A DNA stretch of 54,859 nucleotides from Bacteroidales bacterium (GTDB taxonomy: Bacteria; Bacteroidota; Bacteroidia; Bacteroidales; P3): positions 1 to 54,859 of the forward strand of contig JAFRRK010000074.1 in assembly GCA_017428115.1 (NCBI GenBank). Direction: 5' to 3'. The position numbers were made by a program, and so were the translations under genes. The notes below the pieces were generated by a model. It was given only the letters and a program-made list of their open reading frames with translations, did no database searches and was not told the DNA's origin. Numbering within the stretch: the stretch's first letter is position 1; the number at the start of each line of letters is the position of its first letter. Shown piece by piece: positions 21,307 to 45,820 of this stretch.

Positions 21307-23136
21307 ATGGCTCAATTCTTGCCCATAACACTCGATGAGGTCAAACGTCTCGGCTGGGATGAAGTTGATATTGTCCTTGTAACAGGCGATGCTTATGTCG
21401 ACCACCCCTCTTTTGGCACTGCCGTCATCGGACGGACCCTTGAGGCCGAGGGCTATCGTGTAGCCATTATTCCTCAACCCAATTGGCGCGACGACCTGCG
21501 CGACTTCCGCAAGTTTGGCCGTCCCCGTCTCTTCTTCGGTGTCAATAGCGGTGTCATGGACAGCATGGTCAACCACTACACCGCTGCACGTCGTCTGCGC
21601 CACGACGATGCCTACACCCCTGGTGGTCTGTCGGGCTTCCGTCCCGACCGTGCCACCTATGTCTATACGCGCATCCTCAAACAGCTCTATCCCGATACCC
21701 CCGTCGTCATTGCCGGCATCGAGGCCTCTATGCGCCGTCTGGCACACTACGACTATTGGGACGATAAGCTCTTCCCCAGCATTCTTGCCGACACTCCCGC
21801 CGACTTGCTCAACTACGGCATGGGCGAGCGCACCACCCTCAAGATAGCCCATCTCCTCAACCAGGGCAAAGGCATCGAGGCCTGCCATGCCCTCCCCCAA
21901 GTGGCCTATATCACTAGTAACACTAGTATATCTAGTGATTCTAGTATCTCGAGTATTACTAGTTCTATTAACCCTACTATAGAGCTCCACTCCTACGAAG
22001 AGTGTCTCCGCAGCAAGCGTTTTGAGGCCGAGAACTACCATATCATCGAACAGGAAAGCAATAAGATAGTCTGTGCTACCCTTGTCCAGCGTCATGGTGA
22101 CCGTCTCGTGGTGGTCAATCCTCCCGAACCACCCATGACCACCGAGGAGATTGATGCCTCCTTCGACCTACCCTACACCCGCCTGCCGCATCCCAAATAC
22201 AAGAAGCGCGGCACTGTTCCTGCTTACGAGATGATAAAGAACTCCGTCAACATCCATCGCGGCTGCTTTGGCGGCTGCTCATTCTGCACCATCTCCGCCC
22301 ACCAGGGCAAACAGATTGCCTCCCGTTCCGAAAAATCTATTCTCAAAGAGGTGAAGGTCCTTACCGAGCGCGAAGACTTCAACGGTGTCATCACCGACCT
22401 CGGCGGACCCTCCGCCAATATGTATCGCATGTCGGGCATAAACAAGAAGCTGTGTAAAAAGTGTCCTCGCTACAGCTGCATCCAGCCATCTATCTGTAAA
22501 AACCTTCAGTCCGACCACCGTCCCCTCGTCGACCTCTATAAGAAAGTATCTGCCACCTCCGGCATCAAGCACGTCTATATCGGCAGTGGTATACGCTGCG
22601 ACCTCTTCACACACGATAATCACGGCTGGGATTATTTCCGCCATGTGGTGCTGCACCATGTTAGCGGTCGCCTCAAGGTAGCTCCCGAGCACACCAGCGA
22701 CCATGTGTTGAAACTCATGCGCAAACCCTCCTTCAGCCTTTTCTTACAGACCAAGGCGCAGTTCGACACCATCTGCCGTCAGGCAGGGCTCCGCTACCAG
22801 CTCATCCCTTATTTCATTAGTTCCCATCCCGGATGCCAGCTCCGCGACATGGCCGACCTCGCTGTCGAGATGAAACGCCTCGGCTACCGCCTTGAGCAGA
22901 TACAGGACTTCACCCCCACGCCCATGACCCTCAGCACCGAGATGTACTACACCGGCATCAACCCCGACACAATGCAGCCCGTCTATGTCGCTCGCCGCCC
23001 CGATGAGAAGAAGGCGCAGAACCTCATGTTCTTCTACTACAAGAAAGAGTGCCAGGCAGCCATCCGCCAAGCACTCCACAATCATCACCTTGATAGTTAT
23101 ATCCCTAAAATGGGGTTAAAGAGCTATAAAGTATAA
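21307..23136 (+). CDS. YgiQ family radical SAM protein, with an internal repeat insert
   Basis: 609 residues. The N-terminus (GWDEVDIVLVTGDAYVDHPS) is the conserved YgiQ start, which fixes the ATG at 21307. The radical SAM Cys triad is in CFGGCSFC (near residues 320-327), binding a 4Fe-4S cluster and S-adenosylmethionine. A second Cys-rich segment follows (KLCKKCPRYSCIQPSIC), then the C-terminal DUF3362-like part (PHPKY and VYVARRPDEKKAQ). The substrate of YgiQ proteins is not known. Odd feature: residues about 202-226 are a Ser/Thr/Asn/Ile-rich tract coded by ACTAGT-type repeats (21912-21984), in a region that is short in typical members. Codons on both sides look normal. Confidence 0.92.
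   Translation: MAQFLPITLDEVKRLGWDEVDIVLVTGDAYVDHPSFGTAVIGRTLEAEGYRVAIIPQPNWRDDLRDFRKFGRPRLFFGVNSGVMDSMVNHYTAARRLRHDDAYTPGGLSGFRPDRATYVYTRILKQLYPDTPVVIAGIEASMRRLAHYDYWDDKLFPSILADTPADLLNYGMGERTTLKIAHLLNQGKGIEACHALPQVAYITSNTSISSDSSISSITSSINPTIELHSYEECLRSKRFEAENYHIIEQESNKIVCATLVQRHGDRLVVVNPPEPPMTTEEIDASFDLPYTRLPHPKYKKRGTVPAYEMIKNSVNIHRGCFGGCSFCTISAHQGKQIASRSEKSILKEVKVLTEREDFNGVITDLGGPSANMYRMSGINKKLCKKCPRYSCIQPSICKNLQSDHRPLVDLYKKVSATSGIKHVYIGSGIRCDLFTHDNHGWDYFRHVVLHHVSGRLKVAPEHTSDHVLKLMRKPSFSLFLQTKAQFDTICRQAGLRYQLIPYFISSHPGCQLRDMADLAVEMKRLGYRLEQIQDFTPTPMTLSTEMYYTGINPDTMQPVYVARRPDEKKAQNLMFFYYKKECQAAIRQALHNHHLDSYIPKMGLKSYKV
21912..21984 (+). repeat. CTAGT-rich repeat tract in frame inside the YgiQ gene
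   Basis: About 73 bp with repeated (A)CTAGT motifs: ACTAGTAACACTAGTATATC, then TAGTGATTCTAGTATC, then TATTACTAGTTC. ACTAGT is its own reverse complement, so the tract can form several small hairpins. It codes only Ser, Thr, Asn, Ile and Asp. It lies between the well-conserved segments ALPQVAYI and SYEECLRSKRF. Confidence 0.75.
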
Positions 23137-23274
23137 ATGTCTGTTCGTCATTCCCCTCTGAACTCATTCTCGTTCAACCCCCATTGCCTAATCAATAATT
23201 CTGAAAATATCGTTATTAGATATTTATTTTCTGAACCTATTCTCGTTCAACCCCCATTGGCTTAGCTCGCCTTA
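23137..23274. repeat. 34-bp direct repeat pair between convergent genes
   Basis: Two near-identical copies, 23158-23191 and 23231-23264, share CTGAAC, then ATTCTCGTTCAACCCCCATT and CTTA/CCTA; they differ at a few bases and are 73 bp apart. They fill most of the gap between the convergent YgiQ and YjgR genes. No gene is seen. They may act as a two-way transcript end or be another dispersed small repeat. Confidence 0.65.
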
Positions 23275-24837
23275 TCATTTGCCTTTAAGCAGTCCTCCCA
23301 ACAGTCCGCGTCCTAGTTTGAAGGCGGTGTTCACCAGCTCGCGTTTGGCTTTCTGCTTGGCCATCTTTGAGATGCTGCCCACCAGGCTGTTGTCCTTTTC
23401 GCGTTGACGTTCGCGTTCCTCGGCCTTGCGTTTGCGCTCCTCGGCAGCCTGCTTGCGCTCCTCGGCAGCCTGACGCTTCTCTTCTTCCTTGCGCTGCTTT
23501 TCTTCCTCTTTCTGTTGGGCTGCCAGTTCTTTGGCCTCCTGCTCTTTCTGCAGTTTCTCGGTCAGTATCTCGTAGGCGGATTCTCGGTCGATGGTCTTGT
23601 CGTATTTGCCATACACCATAGAGGTCTGGATGACCCGCTGACGTTCGTCGGGGGTGATGGCACCCGCCTGTCCTTCAGGAGGAAGCACCTTGGCACGTTC
23701 CACCATCGAGGGCATGCCTTTCGAGTCGAGAAACGACACCAACGCCTCGCCCACTGCCATCTCGGTAATCACCTTCGAGGTGTCGAATTCGGGGTTGGTG
23801 CGGAACGAGTCGGCAGCCACCTTCACAGCCTTCTGTTCGTGCGGAGTGTAGGCACGCAGGGCATGCTGCACGCGGTTACCCAATTGCCCCAACACCGTGT
23901 CTGGGATGTCGGCGGGGTTCTGTGTGCAGAAATACACGCCCACACCTTTCGAGCGGATCAGTCGCACTATCTGCTCAATCTTCTCCAGCAGCGACTTGCT
24001 GATGCCGTTGAACAGCATGTGCGCCTCGTCGAAGAAGAACACCAGCTTCGGCTTGTCCAAGTCGCCCACCTCGGGCAGCTGCTCAAACAGCTCGCTCAGC
24101 AGGTAGAGCAAGAACGAGGTGTACACCTTGGGCGAATTGACTATCTGGTCCGATGCCAATATGTTGATAACGCCGCGCCCCTGGCGGGTCTGCATAAAGT
24201 CGAAGATGTCGATTGCGGGTTCGCCAAAAAACTGGTCGCCCCCCTGGTCCTCAAGGCTCAGCAGGCTGCGCTGTATGGCCCCGATGGTGGCAATGCTGAT
24301 GTTGCCGTAGGCGGTGATATACTGTGAGCGGTTGTTGCCCACCTCCTCAAGCATCTTGCGCAGGTCCTTCAGGTCTATCAGCAGCAGTCCTTGGTCGTCG
24401 GCGATGCGGAACACCATGTTCAGCACATCGCTCTGCGTGTCGTTCAGGTCCAGTATGCGGCTCAGCAGTATGGGCCCCATCTCGCTCACCGTGGTGCGCA
24501 GGGGATGCCCCTCCTTGCCCATCACATCCCACACGCATACGGGATAGGCCTTGTATTCAAAGCCGCACTCACGCAGGTGGTTGTCCTCTATGCTTTTCTC
24601 AAAATGCACATTGCCGCCGCCTGCCTGGCTCACGCCCGTGAGGTCGCCCTTGATGTCGGTGGCAAACACCGGCACGCCCATGGCGCTGAATGTTTCGGCT
24701 AGGTTCTGTAGGGTGCAGGTCTTGCCCGTGCCGGTGGCACCGGCTATCAGACCGTGGCGGTTGGCCATTGAGGGGATGATGCCCAGATGCTTCTCGCCGC
24801 TGATGGCGTTAAAAGGAGTACCAGTGTTGTCTATCAT
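23275..24837 (-). CDS. YjgR/DUF853 family HerA-like ATPase
   Basis: 520 residues. N-terminal P-loop: [20 protein letters not shown] (Walker A near residues 30-45). Walker [14 protein letters not shown]. Further marks are [10 protein letters not shown] and [20 protein letters not shown], all standard for DUF853, a HerA/FtsK-like ATPase group with no settled job. From about residue 430 the protein turns into a charged coiled coil built from EERK/EEKR-type repeats, and ends in a Gly/Leu tail ([12 protein letters not shown]). It is transcribed towards the YgiQ gene and stands alone on this strand. Confidence 0.92.
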
Positions 24838-25481
24838 AATTGTAAGGTAGTGTTTAAATGTTTATTTTGCAAAATAACGGCGACAACGCTTTTTTATTGT
24901 GCCACCTTTACCCAATTTCCATTTTCTCTCAACCCCTTCACCCCACAATGCGGCACATGCCCTTTAACGCATTACCCTCATTCCCGCCGAGTGCTGGCAA
25001 TACCCTTGAAACGCTACTGAAACCTACCGTTTCCTACCTATTGGAGAGCCGTTGCCACTCGAAAAATGGCAATCGAACTCCTACTGGTCGGCAGCAGAGC
25101 GAAGGAAATACAAATGCAAGGCGAATTCAAAACTACAAAAAAGTACACCAAGTTGAAAAAAAGTAGTATATTTGCAAAAGCAGACAGAGAGAAACAATGT
25201 CTGCAAACGTCTGAGAAAGCGCATTTTCACCCATCCCTATTGGTGAAACTGGACACTTCACATATAAAGGTTAAGGATTGTTGGGAAGATGAATGCTTCT
25301 GTTGGATTGTATTATAATTCGTGATACATCCCGCAGTGGAGCAATTCACCCAAACCTTTTTTTTTGTTTTCGGGAGTCCAGCCCCACGTCTTAAGATTAG
25401 GTCACGTTGGATGGCTCCACTTTCTTGTATTGTATAAGGATATGCAGCCGAGCCGCGGCATGAACAAAAAGTATTAGATGT
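24838..25481. other. Intergenic region (644 bp)
   Basis: Holds the divergent start regions of the YjgR gene (left) and the FISUMP lipoprotein gene (right). Bases 24900-25130 look like non-coding sequence with a segment (CTACCGTTTCCTACC near 25021) that is a reverse copy of one near 6825. A Bacteroidota -7 box is at 25167-25175, more than 300 bp before the lipoprotein start. The leader in between has two small hairpins (GCAGACA...TGTCTGC near 25179-25203 and TCACC...GGTGA near 25228-25247). Short open frames here overlap the promoter and show no signal of being real. Confidence 0.5.
25167..25175 (+). promoter_or_regulatory. Promoter -7 element TATATTTGC with long leader
   Basis: Perfect TATATTTGC at 25167-25175. 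No TTG at the usual distance. If used, it gives a leader of about 300 nt ahead of the lipoprotein gene at 25482. Confidence 0.55.
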
Positions 25482-26198
25482 ATGAAGCATTCTACATGTT
25501 TTTTAGCAGCTGCGATGCTGATGTTGACAACTGTTTTCTTCGCTGGATGCGAGAAAAATGACAATGATCTAGGTGGCGGTAACTGGGTGGATCTTGGGCT
25601 GCCTTCGGGACTGCTGTGGGCTACGCGCAACATTGGTGCCGCCTCGCCTGAGGACTATGGTGACTACTTTGCCTGGGGCGAGACAAGCCCGAAGAGTGTC
25701 TATGACTGGAGCACCTATAGGTACTGCAACGGGGATTCCACCAAGCTTACCAAGTACTGCAACAATTCGGAATTAGGCTACAATGGTTTCATCGACAGCC
25801 TGACCGTCCTCCAAGCTGTCGACGATGCCGCCACTGCTAACTACGGTGGGCGCACTCCCACCCGTGAGGATTGGAGTGAACTTATGAGTAATACTACTAT
25901 ATCTTGGACTAAACAGAAAGGTGTGAAGGGATTTCTTTTTACTGGACCTAGCGGCAACAAACTTTTCTTGCCCGCTACAGGCTGGCGTGAGGGCAGTTCA
26001 CTCAAAGGCGAAGGCGGTAGTGGCTATTATTGGTCGAGTTCACTCTATGCACCGCTTTACACTTACTATCCTATCTATGCGTATAATTTCGGCTTCTTCA
26101 TCATTGATTTTGGCTCTAGTCATGATGATGTGTGGTACATCGATAATGCAGTACGCAGTCGTGGATACTCAGTCCGTGCTGTACTCTCTGTGCGATAG
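25482..26198 (+). CDS. FISUMP-like lipoprotein
   Basis: 238 residues. Lipoprotein signal peptide with lipobox FFAGC (Cys23). The mature part has the pattern WVDLGLPSGLLWATRNIGA, DYFAWGE, RTPTREDWSEL, GWREGSSLKGEGGSGYYWSS and RSRGYSVRAVL, which is the Fibrobacter/Bacteroidales 'major paralogous domain' (FISUMP, related to DUF1566). Such proteins are abundant, probably surface-exposed lipoproteins of unknown role; the domain fold is thought to be C-type-lectin-like. It is followed by a terminator hairpin (26369-26381). A second member with a shorter match lies at 49870-50673. Confidence 0.85.
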   Translation: MKHSTCFLAAAMLMLTTVFFAGCEKNDNDLGGGNWVDLGLPSGLLWATRNIGAASPEDYGDYFAWGETSPKSVYDWSTYRYCNGDSTKLTKYCNNSELGYNGFIDSLTVLQAVDDAATANYGGRTPTREDWSELMSNTTISWTKQKGVKGFLFTGPSGNKLFLPATGWREGSSLKGEGGSGYYWSSSLYAPLYTYYPIYAYNFGFFIIDFGSSHDDVWYIDNAVRSRGYSVRAVLSVR

Positions 26199-26368
26199 GC
26201 CATACTTATGCTAAACTACTATATGTGATTATCTGGGTGGCGTTTTTACCGTTATGCCATCTAGGTGTTGTTCATGTCATAGAAACGGGTTTGTTGCAGT
26301 CCTACAGGCTGCATCCGTTATTGGTGTGTGCTTGACCACGGGACGGTGCCCTGGGCTATATCTTTCCC

Positions 26369-26386
26369 AGCCCGCCGGGCTTTCTT
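26369..26386 (+). terminator. Hairpin AGCCC-GCC-GGGCT plus T-rich tail
   Basis: AGCCCGCCGGGCT followed by TTCTTT, 170 bp after the FISUMP lipoprotein gene. An outer CTGGG...CCCAG pair just upstream adds a second stem. Confidence 0.55.
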
Positions 26387-26419
26387 TGGCTGGTACATCT
26401 ACTTTCTTTGGCTGGTACA
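26380..26419 (+). repeat. Two copies of an 18-bp direct repeat, 22-bp period
   Basis: CTTTCTTTGGCTGGTACA at 26380-26397 and again at 26402-26419, exact, with a 4-bp spacer. It starts within the terminator tail. Confidence 0.8.
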
Positions 26420-26433
26420 GCTATATGTCAAAA

Positions 26434-26506
26434 CGTTCATGAAAATGTGGCGAATCTCCGAACTTTCGTTCATAAAAATGTAACGATAGTCATAATATTC
26501 GTTCAT
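26434..26506 (+). repeat. 33-bp phased direct repeats upstream of the AAA ATPase gene
   Basis: CGTTCAT occurs at 26434, 26467 and 26500, exactly 33 bp apart. The first two copies extend to CGTTCATGAAAATGT and CGTTCATAAAAATGT; the third runs into the -7 box at 26514. A spacing of 33 bp is about three DNA helix turns, so the sites face the same side of the DNA. It looks like an operator array. Confidence 0.7.
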
Positions 26507-26513
26507 TTTTTTG

Positions 26514-26522
26514 TATATTTGC
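26514..26522 (+). promoter_or_regulatory. Promoter -7 element TATATTTGC of the AAA ATPase gene
   Basis: Perfect TATATTTGC at 26514-26522, 23 bp before the ATG at 26545. There is no TTG at -33; the 33-bp repeats occupy that place. Confidence 0.7.
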
Positions 26523-26544
26523 ATTTGGAATTAATGTTTTGTGT

Positions 26545-27852
26545 ATGTATAGAAGTGTTGTAAATCAGCTATGTGAATGGAAAAAGTCACCTCGCAGGAA
26601 GCCTTTAATACTACTAGGAGCCCGTCAGGTGGGTAAGACTTATAGTCTATTGGAGTTTGGAAGGGAGAATTATAAGTATGTGGCATACATAAACTGCGAC
26701 GATAATGATGAGGTGAGGAGTCTTTTTGTTCAGGATTACAATATTGACCGTGTAGTCCTCATAATTTCAGCGATAACGGGGGTCCCTATTGTCCCAGGGG
26801 ATACACTCATCATATTGGATGAAATACAGGAGTTGCCGCGTGGTCTGGCTTCGCTCAAATACTTTTGTGAGAGGGCACCGCAGTATCATGTTTGTGTGGC
26901 AGGTTCCTTATTGGGCATAACGCTTAGACATGGAGAATCCTATCCTGTGGGTAAAGTGAATACCATACAGATGTATCCAATGACTTTCACCGAGTTCCTT
27001 ATCGCTAGAGGCAAAGGAATGATGGCGGAGTTGTTGCAAAGGCATGATTGGAACACAATAGCAGGGCTGCATAGTATTCTGGTTCAAATGTTGCGAGAAT
27101 ATTATTTGGTTGGTGGTATGCCAGAGGCTGTGAGCGTTTTTCTTGACACAAATGATGCCAATAGTGTGCGAGAGGTGCAAAGAGAAATACTGACAGCCTA
27201 TAGAAATGACATTGCCAAGCATACAACTGACGAACAGTCGAAACGTATAGGAATGGTATGGAGGTCTATGCCCTCGCAACTGTCGAAAGAAAATAAGAAA
27301 TTCGTATACGGTGTTGTGAGAAAAGGAGGGAGGGCAAAGGAGTTTGAGTTGGCAATACAGTGGCTGGTTGATTCTGGACTTGTAATCAGGGTCGGTCGTG
27401 TCAATGCCCCGTCAATGCCATTAAAGGTATATGAAGATTTGTCGACATTCAAACTATTTCTTCTTGATGTCGGACTACTGGGAGCTATGGCAGAGATAAA
27501 TCCTGCTCAATTGCTGCTGCCCAATAATATGAAGGAGGCCAAAGGCATGTTTACGGAAAACTTTGTCTGCACTCAGTTGACAGCAAGTATTGGGCAATCT
27601 TTGTTCTATTATAGCAAGGAGAACAGCCCCTTGGAGATAGATTTTATGATGCAGCAAGATACACAGATTGTTCCAATTGAGGTAAAGTCGGAAGAGAATC
27701 TTAAATCAAAATCTTTGAGCACTTTGCTTCAAAGTAATACAGAGATGCACGGAGTGCGGTTCTCGATGAGTCCATATAGGGAGCAGGAGAGGATGACCAA
27801 TGTTCCGCTATATGGTGCAGGAGTGTATTTTAGAGAAAAGACGATGGAGTAA
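26545..27852 (+). CDS. AAA ATPase with C-terminal DUF4143 domain
   Basis: 435 residues from ATG at 26545. Walker A is GARQVGKT (residues 25-32), Walker B LIILDEIQ (88-95), and a sensor-like segment VCVAGSLLG follows. The C-terminal DUF4143 domain has FTENFVCTQL, then LFYYSKENSPLEIDFM and IVPIEVKS, an E-...-EID-...-EVK pattern like a PD-(D/E)xK nuclease fold. Members are common in Bacteroidota and archaea; their role is not settled. The gene stands alone behind a promoter with three 33-bp-spaced repeats. The stub at 246-371 is a dead relative with the same promoter layout. Confidence 0.9.
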   Translation: MYRSVVNQLCEWKKSPRRKPLILLGARQVGKTYSLLEFGRENYKYVAYINCDDNDEVRSLFVQDYNIDRVVLIISAITGVPIVPGDTLIILDEIQELPRGLASLKYFCERAPQYHVCVAGSLLGITLRHGESYPVGKVNTIQMYPMTFTEFLIARGKGMMAELLQRHDWNTIAGLHSILVQMLREYYLVGGMPEAVSVFLDTNDANSVREVQREILTAYRNDIAKHTTDEQSKRIGMVWRSMPSQLSKENKKFVYGVVRKGGRAKEFELAIQWLVDSGLVIRVGRVNAPSMPLKVYEDLSTFKLFLLDVGLLGAMAEINPAQLLLPNNMKEAKGMFTENFVCTQLTASIGQSLFYYSKENSPLEIDFMMQQDTQIVPIEVKSEENLKSKSLSTLLQSNTEMHGVRFSMSPYREQERMTNVPLYGAGVYFREKTME

Positions 27853-27902
27853 TAATATTATTATTTATTCTGCGTTATTTATTCTGCGTAATTAGAAATA
27901 TT

Positions 27903-28589: not shown

Positions 28590-28679
28590 AATGCAGAAAC
28601 GTTGGCCGATGTACTCGGTTTTAGTTCTTTGAATTTTATTTCATTAATATTATAGTTCTAACTTTAATAGTTTATCAAA

Positions 28680-29564: not shown

Positions 29565-29618
29565 CTGTAGCGTCGACCGTGACGTTCAGGACTGACGCAA
29601 CATAATTATTCACTCGAT

Positions 29619-30263
29619 ATGAAACTAATCTCCCCTTCACTACTAAGTGCCGACTTTGGCAATTTGCAGCGCGATATAGAGATGCTAAATGAGAGCCAGT
29701 GCGACTGGCTGCATGTGGATGTGATGGACGGCGTGTTTGTGCCTAACATCAGTTTTGGACAGCCTGTCGTGAAGCATATTAAGAAACATGCCCGCAAGCC
29801 GCTGGATGTTCACTTGATGATAGTGGATCCTGGCCGTTATGTGAACGACTTTAAGGAGGCAGGTGCCGACATACTGACGGTGCATTATGAGGCCTGCACG
29901 CATTTAGACCGCACGCTGCATGCCATCAAGGATGCGGGTATGCAGTGCGGTGTGGTGCTGAACCCAGGCACGGCTGTCAGCCTGTTGGAGGACACGGTGC
30001 AATTGTGCGACGTGGTGTTGCTGATGTCGGTAAATCCAGGCTTTGGCGGACAGAAGTTTATAGAGAACACCTACAATAAGGTGCAGCAGTTGCGCTCATT
30101 GTGCGACCGCAAGAATCCCTCCTGCCTCATAGAGGTGGACGGAGGAGTGAATGTGCAAAATGCTCCGCAATTGTTTGAGAAGGGTGCCGATGTGCTGGTG
30201 GCTGGCAACGCCGTCTTTAAGAGTGCCAACCCGCAGGAGACCATTAAACTGATGAAGCAGTGA
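29619..30263 (+). CDS. rpe: Ribulose-phosphate 3-epimerase
   Basis: Interconverts ribulose 5-phosphate and xylulose 5-phosphate in the pentose phosphate pathway. 214 residues, TIM barrel. Marks: SLLSADFGNLQRDIEML at the N-terminus, the metal-binding and catalytic VDVMDGVFVPNISFG, DVHLMI, MSVNPGFGGQKFI, and EVDGGVN. The stop codon overlaps the GTG start of the next gene (GTGA), so the two are translationally coupled. Confidence 0.97.
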   Translation: MKLISPSLLSADFGNLQRDIEMLNESQCDWLHVDVMDGVFVPNISFGQPVVKHIKKHARKPLDVHLMIVDPGRYVNDFKEAGADILTVHYEACTHLDRTLHAIKDAGMQCGVVLNPGTAVSLLEDTVQLCDVVLLMSVNPGFGGQKFIENTYNKVQQLRSLCDRKNPSCLIEVDGGVNVQNAPQLFEKGADVLVAGNAVFKSANPQETIKLMKQ

Positions 30264-31495
30264 GAGCCACACTACACTTAGCCCCAGGCAAGGATAAGGC
30301 CGTCATGCGCCGACATCCGTGGATATTCTCGGGTGCGGTAAGGAAGATAGTGGGCGAGCCACAGGAGGGCGACTTGGTGGATGTGGTATCGGCCGATGGG
30401 CGTTGGCTGGCTGTGGGACACTACCAGAGCGATTCGATAGTATGCAAAGTGTTGTCGTTCGACACGCAGCGGGTGGACGAGGCTTTCTTTCGTGAACGTC
30501 TGCAGAGTGCCATTGCCTATCGTGAACGCCTGGGATTCTTTGGAAGTAAGAAGGAGGAACTAAGAACTAAGAATTGGGCTGATAATTCTCAATTCAGAAA
30601 GGCTTCTCAATTCACTAATGTCTTTCGACTGGTACATGCCGAGGGCGACTTTATGCCCGGACTGGTGTGCGACTGGTACAACGGGGTGCTGGTGATGCAG
30701 GCGCATAGCGTGGGAATGCACAGGCTTTTCCCCATGCTCACTGGGCTGTTTGTCGACCTGCTGGGCAAACATGGCATCAAGTCGGTCTTTGACAAGAGCA
30801 GTGCCACTGTGCCAGGAGGATGCGAGGATGGTTATATTTGGGGTGATGAGCCAGAGGAATGGGTGATTTGTGAGCATGGCAACCGTCTGCTCATCAACTT
30901 CTACGAAGGGCAGAAGACGGGCTTCTTTGTCGACCAGCGCGAAAACCGCAACCTAGTGTCAACGCTTGCCGAAGGGCAGAGGGTGCTGAACTGTTTTGGC
31001 TACACGGGAGGCTTCAGCCTTGCCGCCCTACACGGAGGAGCAAGCTATGTGGAGACCGTGGACATCAGCAAGAAAGCTATCGGGCTGTGCAATCGTAATG
31101 TGGAGTTGAACTATGGCAACGAGGCGCCCCATAAAGGTGTGGTGGCCGATGTGTTGAAGTATCTGGAAGAGGTAGACAACCAGTTCAACCTCATCATCCT
31201 CGACCCGCCTGCCTTTGCCAAGAATCACCGTAGCCTGCAACATGGACTGAAAGGCTACCGCAATATCAACCAGCGGGCTATGGAGAAGATACGCCCCGGA
31301 GGACTGTTGCTGACCTTTAGTTGCAGTCAGGCGGTGAGCAACGACGACTTCAAGACTGTCTGTTTCACTGCTGCCGCCAATGCTCACAAGCAGGTGCGCA
31401 TCGTGCGCCAACTGCCTCATGCCATGGACCACCCCGTCAGCATCTACCACCCCGAAGGGGAATACCTGAAGGGATTGCTACTTGAAATAGAATAG
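30260..31495 (+). CDS. RlmI-like class I rRNA methyltransferase, with an internal repeat insert
   Basis: 411 residues from a GTG start that overlaps the rpe stop. N-terminal PUA-like domain (RHPWIFSGAVRKIVGEPQEG), then the SAM-binding motif VLNCFGYTGGFSLAALHGGA and the catalytic LIILDPPAFAKNHRSL loop, then FSCSQAVSND. This is the RlmI group, which makes 5-methylcytosine in 23S rRNA. Odd: between RERLGFF and NVFRLVHAEGDFMPGLV the protein carries about 24 extra residues rich in Lys, Asn, Ser and Gln, coded by A/G-rich repeat DNA (30542-30614) that resembles intergenic repeats in this window. Related proteins usually have few residues here. The frame is kept. Confidence 0.9.
   Translation: MRATLHLAPGKDKAVMRRHPWIFSGAVRKIVGEPQEGDLVDVVSADGRWLAVGHYQSDSIVCKVLSFDTQRVDEAFFRERLQSAIAYRERLGFFGSKKEELRTKNWADNSQFRKASQFTNVFRLVHAEGDFMPGLVCDWYNGVLVMQAHSVGMHRLFPMLTGLFVDLLGKHGIKSVFDKSSATVPGGCEDGYIWGDEPEEWVICEHGNRLLINFYEGQKTGFFVDQRENRNLVSTLAEGQRVLNCFGYTGGFSLAALHGGASYVETVDISKKAIGLCNRNVELNYGNEAPHKGVVADVLKYLEEVDNQFNLIILDPPAFAKNHRSLQHGLKGYRNINQRAMEKIRPGGLLLTFSCSQAVSNDDFKTVCFTAAANAHKQVRIVRQLPHAMDHPVSIYHPEGEYLKGLLLEIE
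30542..30614 (+). repeat. Composite microrepeat in frame inside the RlmI-like gene
   Basis: Begins GGAAGTAAGAAGGAGG, then AACTAAGAACTAAGAATT (family 'AAGAGCTAAGAAGTAAG'), then GGGCTGATAATTCTCAATTC and AAAGGCTTCTCAATTCAC. AATTCTCAATTC pairs with GAATTG just before it, giving a small hairpin. The tract is close in sequence to the intergenic copies near 3994, 34190, 49174 and 50674 and to the centre of the pgk terminator. Confidence 0.7.
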
Positions 31496-31496
31496 T

Positions 31497-34186: not shown

Positions 34187-34216
34187 TATTTGAAGTAAGA
34201 GTTACGAACTAAGAAC
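34187..34216 (+). repeat. Microrepeat, family 'AAGAGCTAAGAAGTAAG', copy 2
   Basis: TTTGAAGTAAGAGTTACGAA and CTAAGAACC directly after the folE stop, matching the copies near 3994 and 49174. Confidence 0.55.
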
Positions 34217-34236
34217 CAACATTCTAATAAAGAAAC

Positions 34237-34882: not shown

Positions 34883-35626
34883 ATGACCATTCTTCTTCTT
34901 GAAACAGCCACGGCAGTCTGTTCTGTAGCCCTTGCCCGCGATGGCAGGGTATTGGCAGAGCTGCATTCCGACCAACCCAACGCCCACTCTTCACGACTCC
35001 CTCTATTTGTGCAGCAGTTGTTTGCCCAGTGTGGCATTACTCCATCGCAGTTGGATGCTGTGTGTGTCTCCTCAGGTCCAGGCAGCTATACTGGCCTCCG
35101 CATCGGTGTCAGCTCTGCCAAGGGTTTCTGCTATGCTCTCTCCATCCCACTGTTGTCGGTGCCTACCCTTCAAGGCATGGCGGCGCAATACTATGCTCAG
35201 CACCCCGACTATCACGGTATGGTTTGCCCTATGATTGATGCCCGGCGCATGGAGTGCTACACCGCCATTTTTGAAATGGAGAATCACTCGAATGCGGCAG
35301 CCAACTCTCAACTTTCAACTCTCAACTTTCAACTCTCAACGCTTAAGCCCACCAGTGCCGACATCATTGCTCCTTGCATCTACGACGATTATCTCAATAG
35401 GGGAGAGGTGGTATTATTGGGCGACGGTGCCGAGAAGACCCGGTCACTGCTGGGCATCCATCCTAACGCCCGCTATGATACCGACTTCCGCATCTCTGCA
35501 ACAGGCATGCTCCCCATTGCCATGCAGCGGTTGCAAGCCGGTCAGCTAGAGGATGTTGCCTATTTCGAACCCTTCTACCTCAAAGACTTCGTGGCTAAGA
35601 AAAGCGTTGTTCGAGGTCTCAAATAA
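34883..35626 (+). CDS. tsaB: TsaB, tRNA threonylcarbamoyladenosine synthesis partner, with a repeat insert
   Basis: 247 residues. N-terminus ILLLETATAVCSVALARDGR and the conserved SSGPGSYTGLRIGVSSAKGF (residues ~65-85) define TsaB, an ASKHA-fold protein that partners TsaD in making t6A37 on tRNAs. The C-terminus (VAYFEPFYLKDFVAKK) is standard. Odd: residues ~138-154 (NSQLSTLNFQLSTL) are coded by 14-bp CAACTCTCAACTTT repeats (35302-35340), an insert in a loop where other TsaB proteins have a short turn. The reading frame is kept. As TsaB is usually essential, this shows that the insert is tolerated. Confidence 0.92.
   Translation: MTILLLETATAVCSVALARDGRVLAELHSDQPNAHSSRLPLFVQQLFAQCGITPSQLDAVCVSSGPGSYTGLRIGVSSAKGFCYALSIPLLSVPTLQGMAAQYYAQHPDYHGMVCPMIDARRMECYTAIFEMENHSNAAANSQLSTLNFQLSTLKPTSADIIAPCIYDDYLNRGEVVLLGDGAEKTRSLLGIHPNARYDTDFRISATGMLPIAMQRLQAGQLEDVAYFEPFYLKDFVAKKSVVRGLK
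35302..35340 (+). repeat. 14-bp tandem repeat (2.8 copies) in frame inside tsaB
   Basis: CAACTCTCAACTTT at 35302-35315 and 35316-35329, then CAACTCTCAAC to 35340. The unit is not a multiple of three, but the sequence as a whole stays in frame. It codes a repeated S-Q-L-S-T-L-N-F-type peptide. Confidence 0.8.
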
Positions 35627-36733: not shown

Positions 36734-36742
36734 TAGTAAACC

Positions 36743-37786: not shown

Positions 37787-37806
37787 TCCCTAATACCATC
37801 ACCTCC

Positions 37807-40221: not shown

Positions 40222-40581
40222 CATTTCTCTCTCGCCCGGCACTGCCTGCCTGCTGCCCCTGTTCCTCTATTGTCCGCCTTTCTATCGTGGATTTCTGTTT
40301 GTTTATCAGCTCTCTATGCGCCATCCTCGCTTCCATTCGTCCCTGCTACACTTCCGACTGCTGCCCACGTCATCTCTGATTATTAATTGGCAAAGAGCCG
40401 CCCTACAGGCTGAGGGCAATAGGGGCCTCTGCTAAGCCTCCCCGTTGTGGCTATCTACGTGTGGCGTGGAGGTAATGTATCAGACAGCCAATTAGTTCTT
40501 CTTCTTTTTTTACGCCTGGGCGTAATGGCATTCAGTACGCTCCCGTGCTGTAACAATCTGTGTGCCATCGTGCCCCCGTGG
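40222..40581. other. Intergenic region (360 bp) between convergent genes
   Basis: Separates the plus-strand run from the minus-strand RM operon. It holds CCTACAGGCTG near 40392 (also near 26303) and a perfect short palindrome TTACGCCTGGGCGTAA near 40510-40525. No terminator with a clear T-run is seen. No gene is seen. Confidence 0.5.
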
Positions 40582-43500
40582 TTACAGTCCCTGATATTTC
40601 TCGTAGTATGCTTTCAGCTTTTGAATCACGGTGTTTTTCTTCTGACTTCTGTTTCCGCCACCAAATCGCGACATTGGCGGCAGTATCTTGTCTATGTCGG
40701 TGCCGGTGGTTCTCAACTGTCCGTCACGGAATGCGTTCTGGATGAATTTCTGGGTCTCTGCCGGTTTCAGTTTTTCTTCTTCGATAATGGTCGCAAGTTC
40801 TTCCTCACGCTTCTGTTTCACATATTCTTCCCATGCGCCGTTGACATCTATGTCGCTGTTGACGGTCTCGATGAAGCTTTCTATGAGTTCCTTCTTGCTG
40901 CGTAGGTTCATGCTGGCGCCTATGGCTTTCGATATGTTCACCAGTATCTCTTTGTCCCTGCAGTTGCTGTCGTGGTATTGCTGCACCAGCATCAGTATGT
41001 AGTCGATGTTTATCTCCACCTGTCGTATGAGTTCGGTTTCGAAGATTAGGTCGTCGTTTATCACCTCCTTGTGTACGTGGTTTTTCTTCCGCCACTTGTC
41101 TCTCAAATCTAGGTAGTGCGATTGGTAGTCCTGCATCTGCCCGTCGGCTAGTAGTTCTTTGCCTTCGAATTGGTCGAATGACTGCAGTACGTTGATTGAC
41201 TTCAGCAGGCTCCCAAATAGGGCGATAAAGCGTCGCTCTTCCTGTTCGCCCATTGCCGTCCATGTCATGCCAGCCGGCAGGCTGGCGGGGTATTCGTCTG
41301 CCAGTTGCTGCACCAGCTCGGCATAGCCATAGCAGTGCTTGCCGTTGGGGGTGTCGTACCCGTTGTAGTACGAGTTGAAGTCTTTCAGCAGGACGATGCT
41401 CGCTGCGTCTTTGTCGCCAAACAGTGCTATTGCGTCGTCGGTCTCTTGTTGCATGTTGCGGAAACAGACTATGTTGCCGAAGGTCTTGATGCTGTTGAGT
41501 ATTCGGTTGGTGCGGCTATAGCTCTGTATCAGTCCGTGCTGCCGCAGGTTCTTGTCGACGAAGAGGGTGTTCAACGTGGTGGCGTCGAAGCCGGTGAGGA
41601 ACATATTGACCACTATCAACAAATCTACCTGTCGGTTCTTCATCCTGAGCGAAAGGTCTTTGTAGTAGTTCTGAAACCGCTCGCTGCTGGTGTCGTAGGT
41701 GGTGTTGAACATTTGGTTGTAGTCCTTGATTGCACCGTCGAGGAAGTCACGGCTCTGCTGGTCGAGGTTGGTGGTGCTTTCGGGGTTCTCTTCGGCCAGT
41801 ATGCCCTCTATCTCCTCCTCGTTGGCTCCGTATGAGTAGATGATGGCTATCTTCAGACGCCTGTCTGCCGACAGGCAGGCCTGCTGCCGTTTGAATTCGT
41901 TGTAGTATGCCTTGGCCATCGGGATGGAGGCCACTGCAAACATGGCGTTGAAGCCTGGCAGTCGCTGCACCCGCTTCTCTTCTTTCACCTCTTTGCCACG
42001 TTTTGCACTGGCCACCTCGCTGATGTTCTGGGTGGTGCGGAAGGTGTAGTAGGATGTTCGCTTGGTCTTTTGGTCGAAGTGTTCGAGTATGTATCTCACC
42101 ACCTCTTCCACCCGCTCTGGTGCCATCATCGCCCGCTCACGGTCTATGGCCGAAATCTGCTTGTCCTTGATGTCGTCCTTTTGTTTCAGTGTGTTCACAT
42201 AGTCGATGCGGAAGGGTAGCACATTCTCGTCGTTGATGGCATCTACTATGGTGTAGGTGTGCAGCTTGTCGCCGAAGGCCTGTTGGGTGGTCTTCAGCTG
42301 TATGTTGCCGGCTGTGCTTGCATTGGCTGCAAATATTGGGGTGCCGGTGAATCCGAACAGGTGGTATCGTTTGAAGTTCTTGACTATTGCCGTGTGCATC
42401 TCGCCGAAGTTGCTGCGATGGCACTCGTCGAAGATGATGACTACGTGTTTCTGGAATATCTCGTGCCCGCGGTTCTTCTGCACAAAGATTGACAGTTTCT
42501 GTATGGTGGTGATGATAATACGGTAGTCGTGGTATGCGCCGTTCTTGTCGCGGTTTTCCAATTGGCGTTGTAGTACTGCCGTAGATGAGTTGCTGTCTGC
42601 CGCACCCTCCTCAAAACGGTTGTATTCCTTCATCGTCTGGTAGTCGAGGTCTTTTCTGTCCACCACAAACAACACCTTGTCGATATAGTCCAGCCGCGAG
42701 GCCAGTTGCGCCGTCTTGAACGAGGTGAGGGTCTTGCCGCTGCCTGTGGTGTGCCAGATGTATCCGCCGCCCTCTGTCTTGCCGTATAGTTTGTAGTTGT
42801 CGGCTATCTTGATGCGTTCTATGATACGTTCCGTGGCCGCTATCTGGTAGGGGCGCATCGCCATCAGCATACGCTCGCTGGTGAAGACGCAATATTTGGT
42901 CAGGACGTTCAGCAGGGTGTGTTTCGAGAAGAATGTCTTGGTGAAGTCGATGAGGTTGAGGATGGGTTTGTTGTTGCTGTCGGTCCAGAACGACGAGAAT
43001 TCAAACGAGTTGCTGGTCTTCTTCGTCTTGTTGCGTCCGCCCTGCTGCTCCTTGATGTGGTTGGCACGGGTGGTGTTGCTGTAGTATTTGGTGTTGGTGC
43101 CGTTGCTGATGACGAATATCTGCACATATTCATACAGCCCGCATCCCGCCCAGAACGAGTCGCGCTGATAACGGTTTATCTGGTTGAACGCCTCTTTCAG
43201 CTGCACGCCGCGCCGCTTCAGTTCGATATGCACCAGGGGGAAGCCATTCACTAAGATGCTCACATCGTAGCGTGCGTCGTGCGTACCGCCGCCCTCTTCG
43301 TATTGGTTGATTACTTGCAGGTGGTTGTTGTGGATGTTCTTGCGGTCTATGAGGTATATGTTCTTGCTCTCGCTCTGCCTGCCTGCCGACAGGTCAGAAT
43401 CGGTCTTCAACACCTGTATGAAGTCTTCCTGTATCTTGGTGGTCTTGGCCTCTATGCCGTCGTTCTTGTTGGCTAGGTTCTCGGTGAAGAATCGCTCCCA

Positions 43501-43737
43501 CTCTCCGTCGGTGAAGGTGTAGTGGTTCAGCCGCTCCAACTGTTTGCGCAGGTTATCCACCAAGTCTTTCTCCGTGTGGATGGGCAGGTATTCGTAGCCC
43601 TGTTCCGTCAGGGTCTTGATGAACTCCTTTTCTAGTGCCGCCTCGCTCTGGTATTGGTCGGGGGCACCGTATTGGGCCTCATACTCGCTGACTACGGTGT
43701 ATTCCTCGTTCTCGGCTATGATGTTGTATTGTGCCAT
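40582..43737 (-). CDS. hsdR: Type I restriction enzyme R subunit (HsdR)
   Basis: The motor and nuclease of a type I restriction system. 1051 residues. N-terminal PD-(D/E)xK nuclease: D158 in ARYDVSILVNG with E172-L-K174 in IELKRRG. Helicase motif I is WHTTGSGKTLTSFKTAQL (near residues 328-345), and motif II is IIFDECHRSNFGEM. Further motifs are seen (FGFTGTPIF; YSRTNRILNSIKTFGN). The C-terminal part binds the HsdM/HsdS core in known enzymes. It is the last gene of the operon, 40 bp after the four-helix-bundle gene. Complete and normal. Confidence 0.96.
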   Translation of the reverse strand: MAQYNIIAENEEYTVVSEYEAQYGAPDQYQSEAALEKEFIKTLTEQGYEYLPIHTEKDLVDNLRKQLERLNHYTFTDGEWERFFTENLANKNDGIEAKTTKIQEDFIQVLKTDSDLSAGRQSESKNIYLIDRKNIHNNHLQVINQYEEGGGTHDARYDVSILVNGFPLVHIELKRRGVQLKEAFNQINRYQRDSFWAGCGLYEYVQIFVISNGTNTKYYSNTTRANHIKEQQGGRNKTKKTSNSFEFSSFWTDSNNKPILNLIDFTKTFFSKHTLLNVLTKYCVFTSERMLMAMRPYQIAATERIIERIKIADNYKLYGKTEGGGYIWHTTGSGKTLTSFKTAQLASRLDYIDKVLFVVDRKDLDYQTMKEYNRFEEGAADSNSSTAVLQRQLENRDKNGAYHDYRIIITTIQKLSIFVQKNRGHEIFQKHVVIIFDECHRSNFGEMHTAIVKNFKRYHLFGFTGTPIFAANASTAGNIQLKTTQQAFGDKLHTYTIVDAINDENVLPFRIDYVNTLKQKDDIKDKQISAIDRERAMMAPERVEEVVRYILEHFDQKTKRTSYYTFRTTQNISEVASAKRGKEVKEEKRVQRLPGFNAMFAVASIPMAKAYYNEFKRQQACLSADRRLKIAIIYSYGANEEEIEGILAEENPESTTNLDQQSRDFLDGAIKDYNQMFNTTYDTSSERFQNYYKDLSLRMKNRQVDLLIVVNMFLTGFDATTLNTLFVDKNLRQHGLIQSYSRTNRILNSIKTFGNIVCFRNMQQETDDAIALFGDKDAASIVLLKDFNSYYNGYDTPNGKHCYGYAELVQQLADEYPASLPAGMTWTAMGEQEERRFIALFGSLLKSINVLQSFDQFEGKELLADGQMQDYQSHYLDLRDKWRKKNHVHKEVINDDLIFETELIRQVEINIDYILMLVQQYHDSNCRDKEILVNISKAIGASMNLRSKKELIESFIETVNSDIDVNGAWEEYVKQKREEELATIIEEEKLKPAETQKFIQNAFRDGQLRTTGTDIDKILPPMSRFGGGNRSQKKNTVIQKLKAYYEKYQGL

Positions 43738-43777
43738 GTAGTGTCAGTTTTTTTTCAGTTCTTCTGGAGGCTCAGGT

Positions 43778-44602
43778 TTATCTGGGCAGTCCATTCTTCT
43801 CTTTTAATGTGGCCAGCTCGTGTTGCAGGCTGGCCACCTGTGCCCGCAGCTGTTCTATCTCAGCCTGTTGGCGCTCTATAATCTCCTTTTGTGTTCCCCG
43901 CTGTTCGAGGCGTGCCGCCGTCATGCGCTCGCGGATGCCGCCCTGCTCCACAAACCGGCTCTGTTGTGTCTTGAGCAGTTGTCCCAGCATATATATTATC
44001 TGGTGGCATAGCGTGATGCAGAGGTTGGCAAGTTCCTCATCGGTCATGCGGGCTGCCTGTAGGGCGTATGTCTGGAGGAAAGACTGGCTACGGGTCCACT
44101 TTCGCAGGCTCTCCAAACGAGGGTGTCCGAGGCCCCACTGTGGCTGCGAGTGGGTACGCAAGTAGTCCTCGTAATCTACAAGCAGCTCCTCAATACTGGC
44201 ACGAGCCACATTGGTCAGTTTTATCTCGGTCTCGCTCGAGGTCATGGCGGCCTGGTTGCCCTCGGCGATGTTCTGTTTGCCACTGCGGGCAGCCTGCACC
44301 ATCTGATCCACCGTGCGGTCGCCATGCTTGGGAAGAAAACGCTGACAGAAGAAATACGTCAAGTCGTACAAGGCTTCTGCCAAATGGTACACCCTCAAGT
44401 GCCTATAATGCCCATTCTGAGGCAGAAACAGATGCCGCCCATACTGTTTACTCTGATTGCTCAGATTACTCTGATCACTCTGATTACTCAGATTATTCTG
44501 ATTATTCTGATTATTCAGATTACTCTGATTACTCAGATTACTCTGATCACTCTGATTATTCAGATCACTCTGATTATTCTGATTATTCTGATTATAATTC
44601 AT
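43778..44602 (-). CDS. Four-helix-bundle 'suffix' domain protein in the RM operon
   Basis: 274 residues, in three parts. Residues 1-51 are a low-complexity Asn/Gln/Ser/Asp stretch coded by sixteen 9-bp repeats. Residues ~55-165 form a four-helix bundle (YHLAEALYDLTYFFCQRFLP, RTVDQMVQAARSGKQNIAEG, EIKLTNVARASIEELLVDYE, CITLCHQIIYMLGQLLK) like the 23S rRNA intervening-sequence/TIGR02436 group; FLPQNGHYRHLRVYHL and the tail match the TIGR04258 'four helix bundle suffix' type. Residues ~215-268 form a coiled coil (ERQQAEIEQLRAQVASLQ). The gene sits 3 bp after hsdS and 40 bp before hsdR, in the same direction, so it is part of the RM operon. Its role is unknown; related bundles bind nucleic acids. 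Confidence 0.8.
   Translation of the reverse strand: MNYNQNNQNNQSDLNNQSDQSNLSNQSNLNNQNNQNNLSNQSDQSNLSNQSKQYGRHLFLPQNGHYRHLRVYHLAEALYDLTYFFCQRFLPKHGDRTVDQMVQAARSGKQNIAEGNQAAMTSSETEIKLTNVARASIEELLVDYEDYLRTHSQPQWGLGHPRLESLRKWTRSQSFLQTYALQAARMTDEELANLCITLCHQIIYMLGQLLKTQQSRFVEQGGIRERMTAARLEQRGTQKEIIERQQAEIEQLRAQVASLQHELATLKEKNGLPR
44452..44595 (-). repeat. Sixteen 9-bp repeats at the start of the four-helix-bundle gene
   Basis: Units of TCTGATTAC/TCTGATTAT/TCAGATTAC type (plus strand), 16 in a row with no gap, just inside the ATG. Each unit adds three residues, so copy number can change without frameshift. The minus strand codes Asn, Gln, Ser, Asp and Leu only. Confidence 0.9.
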
Positions 44603-44605
44603 AGT

Positions 44606-45820
44606 TCATTTCTCCTTTCTCTTGAATGTCAGTAGCTGGTCTCGGTAATACTCGTATTGCTGTTGCCGTGCCTCAATCTCCGCCGGAAGCCCTTGGGAGA
44701 GGTCGTTGACAAGGGTGTCAAACCGGTCAAGGATTTCGACTATTCGTTGTTGCTCGGATTTTGTTGGGATACCAAACTCATATTCCATAACTTTCTGCTT
44801 ATCTCCTCTGGGCATTTTTGCACCTTTTGAATAACTGTTGTCGTATTCAAAGAAAGAATGAGATGATAAAATGCAGTATAGATAACGTGGAATGATTACA
44901 TTCTTTGCATCATCCTTTATTCTGATACATAAGACATCCCCATTTGTTCCGCCAACACAATCTGCATACCATATTTTGTGTAAGTACGGTCGTATATTTC
45001 CAACCAATACATCATTAGGTTCAAACTTGATACAATTACCTTCCTTGGGGACATTGCTTGCTTTCTCCTTTCCACGTTGGTTTGGTAAAAGGTTTTCGAC
45101 GCTTACATAATTGTTTTCATCCACCAAGTCCGCTCCAATCCTTTCCTTTGCATAGATGCACACCTCTCCCAGTTTCTTCCATTGCACATCTGTTCTGCCG
45201 GTGAATGAGAGTAGGGTGTCGCGGTAGTATTGGTATTGTTGTTGTCTCGCTTGCAGCTCCGCTTGCAGCTCCGCTTGCAGCTCCGCTGCATATACCGTGA
45301 AACGGTCGAGAATATTTACTATCGCCTCTTGCACCGGTAGTGGGGGAAGGGGGATTGGATAATCTTTTACAATTTGTGCGTTTATATTGTTTTGACTTCC
45401 TTGTCCCAAAGATTTTATGTTCTCATACTCGTTGCAAACACAATAATAAACATATTTGTAGAGTGCTTTTTGTGAGTTGATTTGGAGATTGCAACAGGCT
45501 TGATTGGTTGTGAGAGGTATCTTGTTTATTCCGACTTTCCCTGCCGTTGCTCCATACATTGCAATTATTACACAATTAGTGGGTATAATTTTTGCTGATG
45601 AGTTATTGACGGCTTCTTCTGTTATTTTTATTTCTGTATCATAAATGTCATTCCAATTTACTTCTTGCGTTCTCAACCAGGGAATATTACCCATAAAATA
45701 ATCGCCATTCCCTCGTGATGGAGTACCCCCAGAACAAACCTTTACACAGAGTTCTCCTAACTTGACATACTCCACCCCCTCCGGACAATATTGCTGTATC
45801 AAATTATCTATCTTCCCCAT
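44606..45820 (-). CDS. hsdS: Type I restriction-modification specificity subunit (HsdS)
   Basis: 404 residues, two target recognition domains as in a complete HsdS. TRD1 (~17-165) starts with the typical GGTPSRGNGDYF and ends PLPPLPVQEAIVNILDRF. The central helix (~172-205) has the tandem L-Q-A-E repeat and then QQQYQYYRDTLLSF. TRD2 (~213-365) ends QQRIVEILDRFDTLVNDL, and the second helix ends QQQYEYYRDQLLTF, a near copy of the first. Each TRD reads one half of a bipartite DNA site; the helices set the gap between the halves. The gene starts 3 bp after hsdM and ends 3 bp before the four-helix-bundle gene. Confidence 0.95.
   Translation of the reverse strand: MGKIDNLIQQYCPEGVEYVKLGELCVKVCSGGTPSRGNGDYFMGNIPWLRTQEVNWNDIYDTEIKITEEAVNNSSAKIIPTNCVIIAMYGATAGKVGINKIPLTTNQACCNLQINSQKALYKYVYYCVCNEYENIKSLGQGSQNNINAQIVKDYPIPLPPLPVQEAIVNILDRFTVYAAELQAELQAELQARQQQYQYYRDTLLSFTGRTDVQWKKLGEVCIYAKERIGADLVDENNYVSVENLLPNQRGKEKASNVPKEGNCIKFEPNDVLVGNIRPYLHKIWYADCVGGTNGDVLCIRIKDDAKNVIIPRYLYCILSSHSFFEYDNSYSKGAKMPRGDKQKVMEYEFGIPTKSEQQRIVEILDRFDTLVNDLSQGLPAEIEARQQQYEYYRDQLLTFKRKEK
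45249..45284 (-). repeat. Three exact 12-bp repeats in the central helix of HsdS
   Basis: GCTTGCAGCTCC (plus strand) three times without gaps, coding L-Q-A-E three times (residues ~179-191). Each unit adds four residues, about one helical turn, to the spacer between the two recognition domains. Confidence 0.95.

Follow-up and report, generated by a model that had tools for sequence, protein, structure and literature searches.

A palindromic element with heptad-repeat arms between and within genes of a gut Bacteroidales genus

The stretch of DNA considered here, the window, is the 54,859-nucleotide contig JAFRRK010000074.1 of a Bacteroidales bacterium (assembly GCA_017428115.1), in which two genes and several intergenic regions carry a small palindromic repeat that we term the heptad-arm element. 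The window is contig C68 of the draft genome G000 (2.78 Mb, 103 contigs, completeness 80%), presumably a metagenome assembly. Its named relatives are Bacteroidales metagenome-assembled genomes (MAGs), many of them from rumen, other ruminant-gut or horse-faeces samples, and include Candidatus Colimorpha. The nearest sibling is G006 (completeness 72%); G021 and G002 are further genomes of the same genus rich in copies.

An earlier note on this sequence had listed five repeat tracts inside genes (ygiQ, an RlmI-like gene, tsaB, a four-helix-bundle gene and hsdS) and five intergenic motifs related to the RlmI-like tract. All five tracts were confirmed, with positions that agree with those listed exactly or to within a few bases, and the reading frame is kept in each; Tandem Repeats Finder (TRF) detects four of them (21922-21963, 35302-35340, 44444-44594 and 45248-45287) and does not detect the RlmI-like tract. 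The five intergenic motifs are likewise present. The tracts do not represent one phenomenon, as had been proposed. Those of the RlmI-like gene and tsaB belong, together with four of the five intergenic motifs (one of them weakly), to one element. The kinship of the tsaB tract with this group had been overlooked. The tracts of ygiQ and the four-helix-bundle gene belong to two families of 9-bp units, and that of hsdS stands apart.

The heptad-arm element in the window and in related genomes

The element consists of inverted arms of degenerate heptads, (GARNTRA)n, which flank a core of about 19 bp (ATCCGGGTGCGGCAGCCAA). The arms occur in the dialects GAATTGA, GAANTAA and AAATTGA; the first two conform to GARNTRA, and the third deviates from it in its first base. 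A clear palindrome is found in locus L033, at the insertion site of the window's RlmI-like gene, where GAATTGA heptads are followed by the core ATCCGGGTGCGGCAGCC and by TTCTCAA heptads. The same core stands in the same register in the tsaB tract of the window, in tsaB of the sibling (L213), in a DUF4838 gene of G000 (L115:5762) and at 49183 in the window, and a core in register is also seen at 6 of 30 core matches fetched from the genome. Altogether, 12 copies at 10 loci share the core at a fixed position between the arms. From these we built a covariance model, R1, whose alignment includes the tsaB tract and the 49183 copy. The window contains the following copies:

4000..4089, minus strand: intergenic copy with GAACTAA-type arms and CAGCC in the core (R1 4010-4071, weak, E 0.075); inverted repeat 4005-4026/4055-4076, 82% complementary
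21226..21294, minus strand: intergenic copy between the open reading frame (ORF) 20007-21203 and ygiQ (R1 21231-21287, E 1.7e-4); arms of 27 nt, 89% complementary
30542..30614, plus strand: degraded copy, in frame, in the RlmI-like gene 30260-31495 (R1 30557-30600, weak, E 0.13)
34187..34218, plus strand: half heptad array without core, between two genes; not recovered by R1
35267..35340, plus strand: copy in frame in tsaB, gene 34883-35626 (R1 35267-35323, 54 bits, E 2e-9, a copy in the model alignment)
49174..49245, plus strand: intergenic copy with the shared core AGGGTACGACAGCC (R1 49183-49237, E 3e-9, a copy in the model alignment)
50669..50763, plus strand: intergenic copy with long GAAGTAA/GAGCTAA arms (R1 50693-50748, E 0.002); arms 50680-50710/50729-50759, 87% complementary

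The tsaB tract comprises the core ACTCGAATGCGGCAGCCAA and CAACTYT heptads. The left arm of the copy at 49174..49245 provides the stop codon of ORF 47985-49184. The RlmI-like protein has Pfam matches to PF10672 and PUA_3, and loci L033-L035 possess a clearer copy at its insertion site than the window itself.

The motif is abundant in the source genome. With up to two mismatches, GAAVTAAGAAVTAAGAA has 225 matches in G000 versus 16 for its reversed control, and a sample of 455 kb (the window and 20 sampled stretches of G000) contains 26 arrays of period 7 versus none in one two-base-block shuffle. The same sample has nine R1 places at E<0.005, three of them inside genes (tsaB, L115 and L126), which extrapolates to about 55 copies per genome, the window itself not being a random choice. 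R1 matches (E<=0.001) were found in 18 of 25 genomes of the genus, G000 included, with counts on both strands of 33 in G000, 45 in G006, 51 in G021 and 22 in G002; the species G003, G005, G011, G013, G014, G020 and G022 are without a match, as are all 16 genomes searched from other families. A plain GAATTGA heptad array occurs in 29 of 149 genomes across the order (including G000). A few other genomes of the order are very rich in the reversed control word, which forms AGTTAAG heptads, and this indicates that heptad arrays of other spellings exist elsewhere; G168, of another family, has 222+238 matches to such AGTTAAG arrays. Scans with heptad consensus words were dropped because their control words overlapped the motif.

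Copies inside genes were identified as R1 places within stop-to-stop ORFs of at least 150 aa (26 rows, 25 places). Sixteen of these ORFs were submitted to Pfam, L309, L347 and L112 not being among them, and the RlmI-like protein and TsaB were run as window proteins. A family was found for 15 of the 16, and none for L311. Including the two window proteins, this amounts to 17 sites in 16 Pfam-supported genes, with the DUF4838 gene (L115 and its G021 orthologue L312) counted once. The RlmI-like site is counted through its orthologues L033 and L261, excluding an antisense ORF on the opposite strand of L261. The hosts are DUF4838, MnmA, TatD, CoaBC, a radical-SAM protein, GH106, a metallo-beta-lactamase-fold protein, NqrA, an M20 peptidase, a GltD-type oxidoreductase, a periplasmic binding protein, a MiaB/RimO-like protein, an alpha-2-macroglobulin (two sites), HPPK, the RlmI-like protein and TsaB; names more specific than the Pfam families are our own reading.

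At all 17 sites, each with an unbroken host, the arms are read in one frame, giving an IENxxLxIEN-like peptide on the left and an NSQFSILNSQ-like peptide on the right, and the core lies in one orientation at eight sites and in the other at nine. The frame was called from a loose peptide pattern, by which the GAACTAA arms of the window's RlmI-like copy were not recognised on the left side. It is the frame that keeps a GAATTGA left arm open longest, and several coding copies have AATGGA in their fourth heptad, the position at which an in-frame TGA would otherwise lie. Outside long ORFs, 38 of 55 copies have no open frame over the element and 12 bases on each side. The proposal of small repeats that spread, and that coding DNA retains if they are in frame, is thereby supported. 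Neither residues of equal length in most orthologues nor a lack of motif excess, either of which would have spoken against it, was seen for the sites compared.

At the RlmI-like and TsaB sites, most of the orthologues read are without these residues. For the RlmI-like gene the reading covered 58 Bacteroidales loci (L076 ends before the site), with loci L090-L111 from outside the order set aside. L032-L035 have the element or a degraded form of it, L044 and L071 have other repeats at the site, and the remaining loci have short loops or loops without evident repeat. The insert occurs in frame at the same site in the separately named MAGs RUG13549, RGIG7974 and RUG264. Among the 25 TsaB loops printed (26 loci), three have heptads, with the core in the window and G006 and heptads only in G002.

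Comparison with PDB sequences places the insert between conserved segments in four hosts, which does not support the suggestion that these repeats land anywhere. In TsaB the matches stop at residue 132 and restart at 205; in the RlmI-like protein the stretch at the insert is unmatched in 3c0k, with conserved segments on either side; in TatD, residues 77-111 stand opposite 76-83 of the chain, between matched segments. In HPPK, 28 residues lie between chain positions 91 and 93, ahead of the RPIDID motif and near a catalytic loop. The HPPK gene of G006 (L323:1274-1870) has the element between RKEK and RPIDID. For a fragment of MnmA, the match ends at the insert.

Some gene boundaries also differ between siblings. 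Nine were tried against G006, G018 and G021, and for seven of them a comparison with one sibling or more was possible. Non-coding content differs at four (29565, 34187, 34882 and 35627) and is alike at three (30259, 31496 and 33516). The window lacks a palindrome at 29565-29618, whereas G018 and G021 each have one there, of different kinds. Heptads at 34187-34236 differ between the window and G006 and are absent from G018. Cores are variable as well: the DUF4838 site has the core inverted between G000 and G021, and at an apparently orthologous site (L295/L331) it is swapped for another repeat in G006.

Probable spread of the element and alternative explanations

The recurrence of the core at unrelated loci suggests that the element spreads by copying. 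We regard it as likely that a single palindromic element, dispersed and non-autonomous, is present as copies in the RlmI-like and tsaB tracts and in the intergenic motifs related to them. Its spread would proceed through the copying of a DNA hairpin or palindrome, with insertion into non-coding and coding DNA alike. Coding copies would outlast selection only if in frame, free of stop codons and within a tolerant loop, and the survivors would mostly be neutral passengers.

The element was characterised on a set of 80 places, hand-picked from 155 R1 matches (both strands, E<=0.01) and mostly from the four genomes G000, G006, G021 and G002, which were selected as match-rich. Duplicates on the opposite strand and some other places that were weak or redundant (e.g., L034, L035, L297:445, L303:1392 and L337:1065) were left out, as were the second elements in L034, L035 and L261; three weaker matches (window 30557, window 4010 and L121:185) were included. 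By eye, the cores fall into the subfamilies ATCCGGGTGCGGCAGCC (G000, G006 and part of G021), CACCCGACAGGTCTC (G021) and ATCGTTTGCGTCAGCCG (G002), with others unplaced. Among 72 cores, after exclusion of pairs with similar flanks, cores at unrelated loci are more similar within genomes (0.354) than between them (0.336), a value reached by 14 of 1000 label permutations.

On average, an arm in the 53 non-coding copies matches its own partner better than it matches partners from other copies of that genome, a result reached by 0 of 2000 permutations and seen individually in 36 of the 53; in the 24 copies within ORFs this is reversed (1996 of 2000 permutations). Mismatched pairs in the 33 non-coding copies that are co-directional include 37 G-T and 38 A-C, and this equality gives no sign of selection for G-U wobble. 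Rfam yielded no gathering-level match in the window and, in 15 element loci, only two weak matches to miRNA families, far under their cut-offs. Together, arm matching, mismatch counts and Rfam results favour correction or copying of the arms at the DNA level.

Several observations weigh against this interpretation. No clean pair of occupied and empty sites with a target duplication was found, one genome per species being searched, and the four best DNA matches to G006 are 79-84% identical. The in-frame rule is partly circular, as ORF-based detection sees only open copies, and the DUF4838 gene of G021 (L312, G021:C27, 1490-1546) has its frame broken at the element, being either a pseudogene or an assembly error; the frame of its orthologue in G000 (L115:4572-7052) is open. 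The bare core TCCGGGTGCGGCAGCC, with up to three mismatches, has 36 places versus 60 for the reversed control, and only 6 of 30 fetched matches to it lie between heptad arms. The difference in core similarity is small, partly because two genomes share one subfamily. R1 rewards pairing and may inflate the matching of arms, although the ORF copies were chosen likewise and lack the effect. A 3' end of a gene lies within 15 nt of 32 of the 53 non-ORF copies, and the element may have a role at gene ends. No transposition machinery was identified, and no fixed terminal repeat is evident by eye, the arm ends being ragged.

Among other explanations, ordinary slippage of simple sequence would mean that each tract originated and lengthened where it now stands, in a disordered loop or a spacer, and that nothing moved from one locus to another. 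The number and type of units indeed vary between orthologues (the tsaB heptads are CAACTYT in the window versus CAATTCT in G006), and such loops permit many kinds of repeat, as in YgiQ, where 12 of 20 readable loops bear repeats by eye. Slippage is nevertheless improbable, since a non-repetitive core of 16-19 bp is common to unrelated loci, the arms are inverted, and units degenerate at fixed positions (GARNTRA, and WCTAGWNNN in ygiQ) are not expected from it alone.

An equally improbable explanation is that of a classical repetitive extragenic palindrome (REP), its doublet form (REPIN) or a miniature inverted-repeat transposable element (MITE), moved by a Y1 transposase (REP-associated tyrosine transposase, RAYT, or TnpA_REP) or by that of an insertion sequence. 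Such elements would resemble ours in being small, palindromic, multi-copy, both intergenic and intragenic and often near gene 3' ends. The Y1_Tnp family (PF01797) has matches in 19 of the 25 genomes searched, among them the R1-rich G002 (three matches); G021 lay outside that search. However, it has no match in G000 or G006, two of the three genomes richest in R1 matches, and as these two are incomplete and G002 has three matches, a RAYT origin becomes less likely only. GTAG or CGTC occurs near a foot of 10 and 7 of the 80 places, below random places (35% and 40%), GTAG...CTAC occurs at both feet of none, and a fixed terminal repeat was not evident by eye. Identity with the REP tags was rejected on these counts, and a RAYT origin was set aside less firmly.

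We consider it very unlikely that the copies are functional RNA hairpins, i.e. terminators or mRNA-stability elements conserved for the transcript. The nearness of gene 3' ends and the complementarity of non-coding arms would suit such a role, but the balance of mismatches, the Rfam results, the copies inside genes and the turnover between siblings do not, and an RNA element was rejected on the first two. An artefact of metagenome assembly or binning is hardly credible: the relatives are nearly all MAGs, which is a further weakness of our interpretation, and some contigs begin in heptad arrays (G000:C23:6, G000:C55:2 and G107:C175:3), from which heptad repeats probably break assemblies, but three separately named MAGs share the RlmI-like insert in frame.

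Other repeat families in the window and their relation to the element

The remaining tracts, and a further palindrome, are located as follows:

21912..21984, plus strand: ygiQ tract (gene 21307-23136), a 9-bp WCTAGWNNN array in frame, with exact pattern matches from 21913
44444..44594, minus strand: tract of the four-helix-bundle or 23S-IVP-like gene (43778-44602), a 9-bp TCNGANNNN array (TRF period 9, 16.8 copies)
45248..45287, minus strand: hsdS tract, a 12-bp repeat of 3.3 copies (ELQA) in the spacer (TRF)
47637..47700, no strand given: intergenic palindrome with arms of 11-bp period (CGAAGGCA type), another odd-period palindrome family

The WCTAGWNNN unit joins a constant palindromic 6-mer to a free spacer of three bases. 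It was found in 14 of 16 genomes searched from the genus and in none of nine from other families, with counts of 26 per strand in G000, 164 in G004, 91 in G001 and 77 in G006; controls gave 0-2, except in G002 (control 24 versus 9 true). The repeats in the YgiQ loop are of at least four kinds. G006 has the WCTAGWNNN family there too, and other species have other repeats or none recognisable. In G012 (L184) the same loop holds, in frame, a 92-bp GC-rich palindrome, CCTCACCCCCGACCCC...GGGGGTGAGG.

The TCNGANNNN array forms an N-terminal extension (NNQSD...) of the four-helix-bundle protein, whose match to PF05635 has an E of 1e-6, but at 29.1 bits versus a cut-off of 33.8. In its wider form, RATCWGARY, the unit has 43 matches in G000, 15 of them in this tract itself, 31 in G002 and one match in one of nine genomes from other families (controls 0-3). 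Of 15 homologues printed, three have such units at the N-terminus: those of the window and of G014 are TCNGA units, and a G006 homologue has a hybrid array of TCNGACTAG type. Most others have no evident repeat. Both 9-bp families also occur outside ORFs of 100 aa.

These tracts represent two other families in the same kind of place as the heptad-arm element. They use the same landing places, and any common mechanism would be conjectural. The link between repeat families that the earlier note had drawn holds in part, for ygiQ and the four-helix-bundle gene, in the shared permissive places and one hybrid array, and not for hsdS. A single family for all five tracts was rejected, as no further copy of the hsdS 12-mer exists in the 455-kb sample and the 9-bp units are without heptad sequence.

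A broader and more doubtful possibility is that a single process in the genus generates palindromes from tandem units, with an odd period in the arms (7, 9 or 11 bp) and some positions variable. Its products would be the heptad-arm element, the WCTAGWNNN and TCNGANNNN arrays and two kinds of palindrome with 11-bp units, CGAAGGCA and TATACT. Copying would take place via folded DNA; each arm would serve to correct the other, cores could be flipped or replaced, and protein loops would keep a standing record. The basis for this reading is that, in the 455-kb sample, an inverted partner lies near 17 of 48 arrays with a period of 7, 9 or 11 versus 0 of 14 with a period of 6, 8, 10 or 12; these counts are small and not all independent, since in some cases two arrays form the arms of a single palindrome. 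Besides period 7, period 11 stands out in the 455-kb sample, with 17 arrays versus none in the shuffle.

Further repeats were noticed. A GC-rich family of 11-bp units (CGAAGGCAYGA type) occurs at window 47637-47700, L112:2879, L114:2354, L118:13459, L123:3320 and L126:6441, mostly between genes. An AT-rich family of 11-bp units (TATACTWTATT type), several copies of which are palindromic, is non-coding at L115:745-836, L121:12728-12786, L128:1790-1889, L129:59-101 and L131:8733-8816. The window also has a 32-bp direct repeat of 2.4 copies with internal GGAAT...ATTCC palindromes (411-487), a perfect 21-bp duplication, TTGCGCTCCTCGGCAGCCTGC, within ORF 23275-24837 (23432-23472), and a 22-bp duplication, 95% matching, outside the listed ORFs (26380-26423).

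Comparison with known repeat systems

The hsdS tract is a known type of spacer repeat, unrelated to the other tracts. Its host matches Methylase_S (PF01420) in two stretches, with ELQA three times at the end of the first domain, between the halves. Type I S subunits, as described in PMC10030836, have repeats of four amino acids in a central spacer; those are, for example, TAEL, in contrast to ELQA here.

Heptamer arrays are known as long simple sequence repeats of TAACTGA, distributed patchily across phyla in Beggiatoaceae, Cyanobacteria and five Bacteroidetes and, according to PMC4679880, mostly intergenic. They share the tandem seven-base unit with our element. However, they mainly consist of a single exact heptamer repeated directly, close to start codons, whereas the heptad-arm element is degenerate, inverted around a core and present in coding loops. 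GTAG/CGTC REPs, as presented in PMC3733652, are likewise short multi-copy palindromes, some of them within genes and some providing stop codons, and the CGTC ones also occur in Bacteroidetes; our element differs in the lack of tag enrichment at its feet and of a Y1 match in G000 or G006.

The best-known cases of protein-coding palindromic repeats are those of Rickettsia and Wolbachia. Among the best matches of our literature search, which included few subscription papers, no account of such coding palindromes in Bacteroidales was found. The Rickettsia palindromic elements (RPE), according to PMC2229807, measure 105-146 bp and are fused in frame in 19 reading frames, including a guanylate kinase that is still active; the Wolbachia repeats are represented here by a title in its reference list. 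Like RPE, the heptad-arm element is a small, multi-copy palindrome found in intergenic and coding DNA, fused in frame in conserved genes and with an open frame running through it. Unlike RPE, it has arms of tandem degenerate heptads and a short variable core, and occurs in gut Bacteroidales. By description rather than by sequence, an RPE-like protein-coding palindromic repeat would be the closest kind, and arms made of tandem odd-period units are a new feature compared with the Rickettsia and Wolbachia repeats. A rich case in gut Bacteroidales would untie "selfish" coding palindromes from obligate intracellular life. It would also provide a genus-wide natural map of sites able to accommodate 25-30 foreign residues, as in MnmA, TatD, CoaBC, HPPK, TsaB and others, and a warning for annotation that insertions rich in N or of NSQFSILNSQ type derive from repeats in this group.

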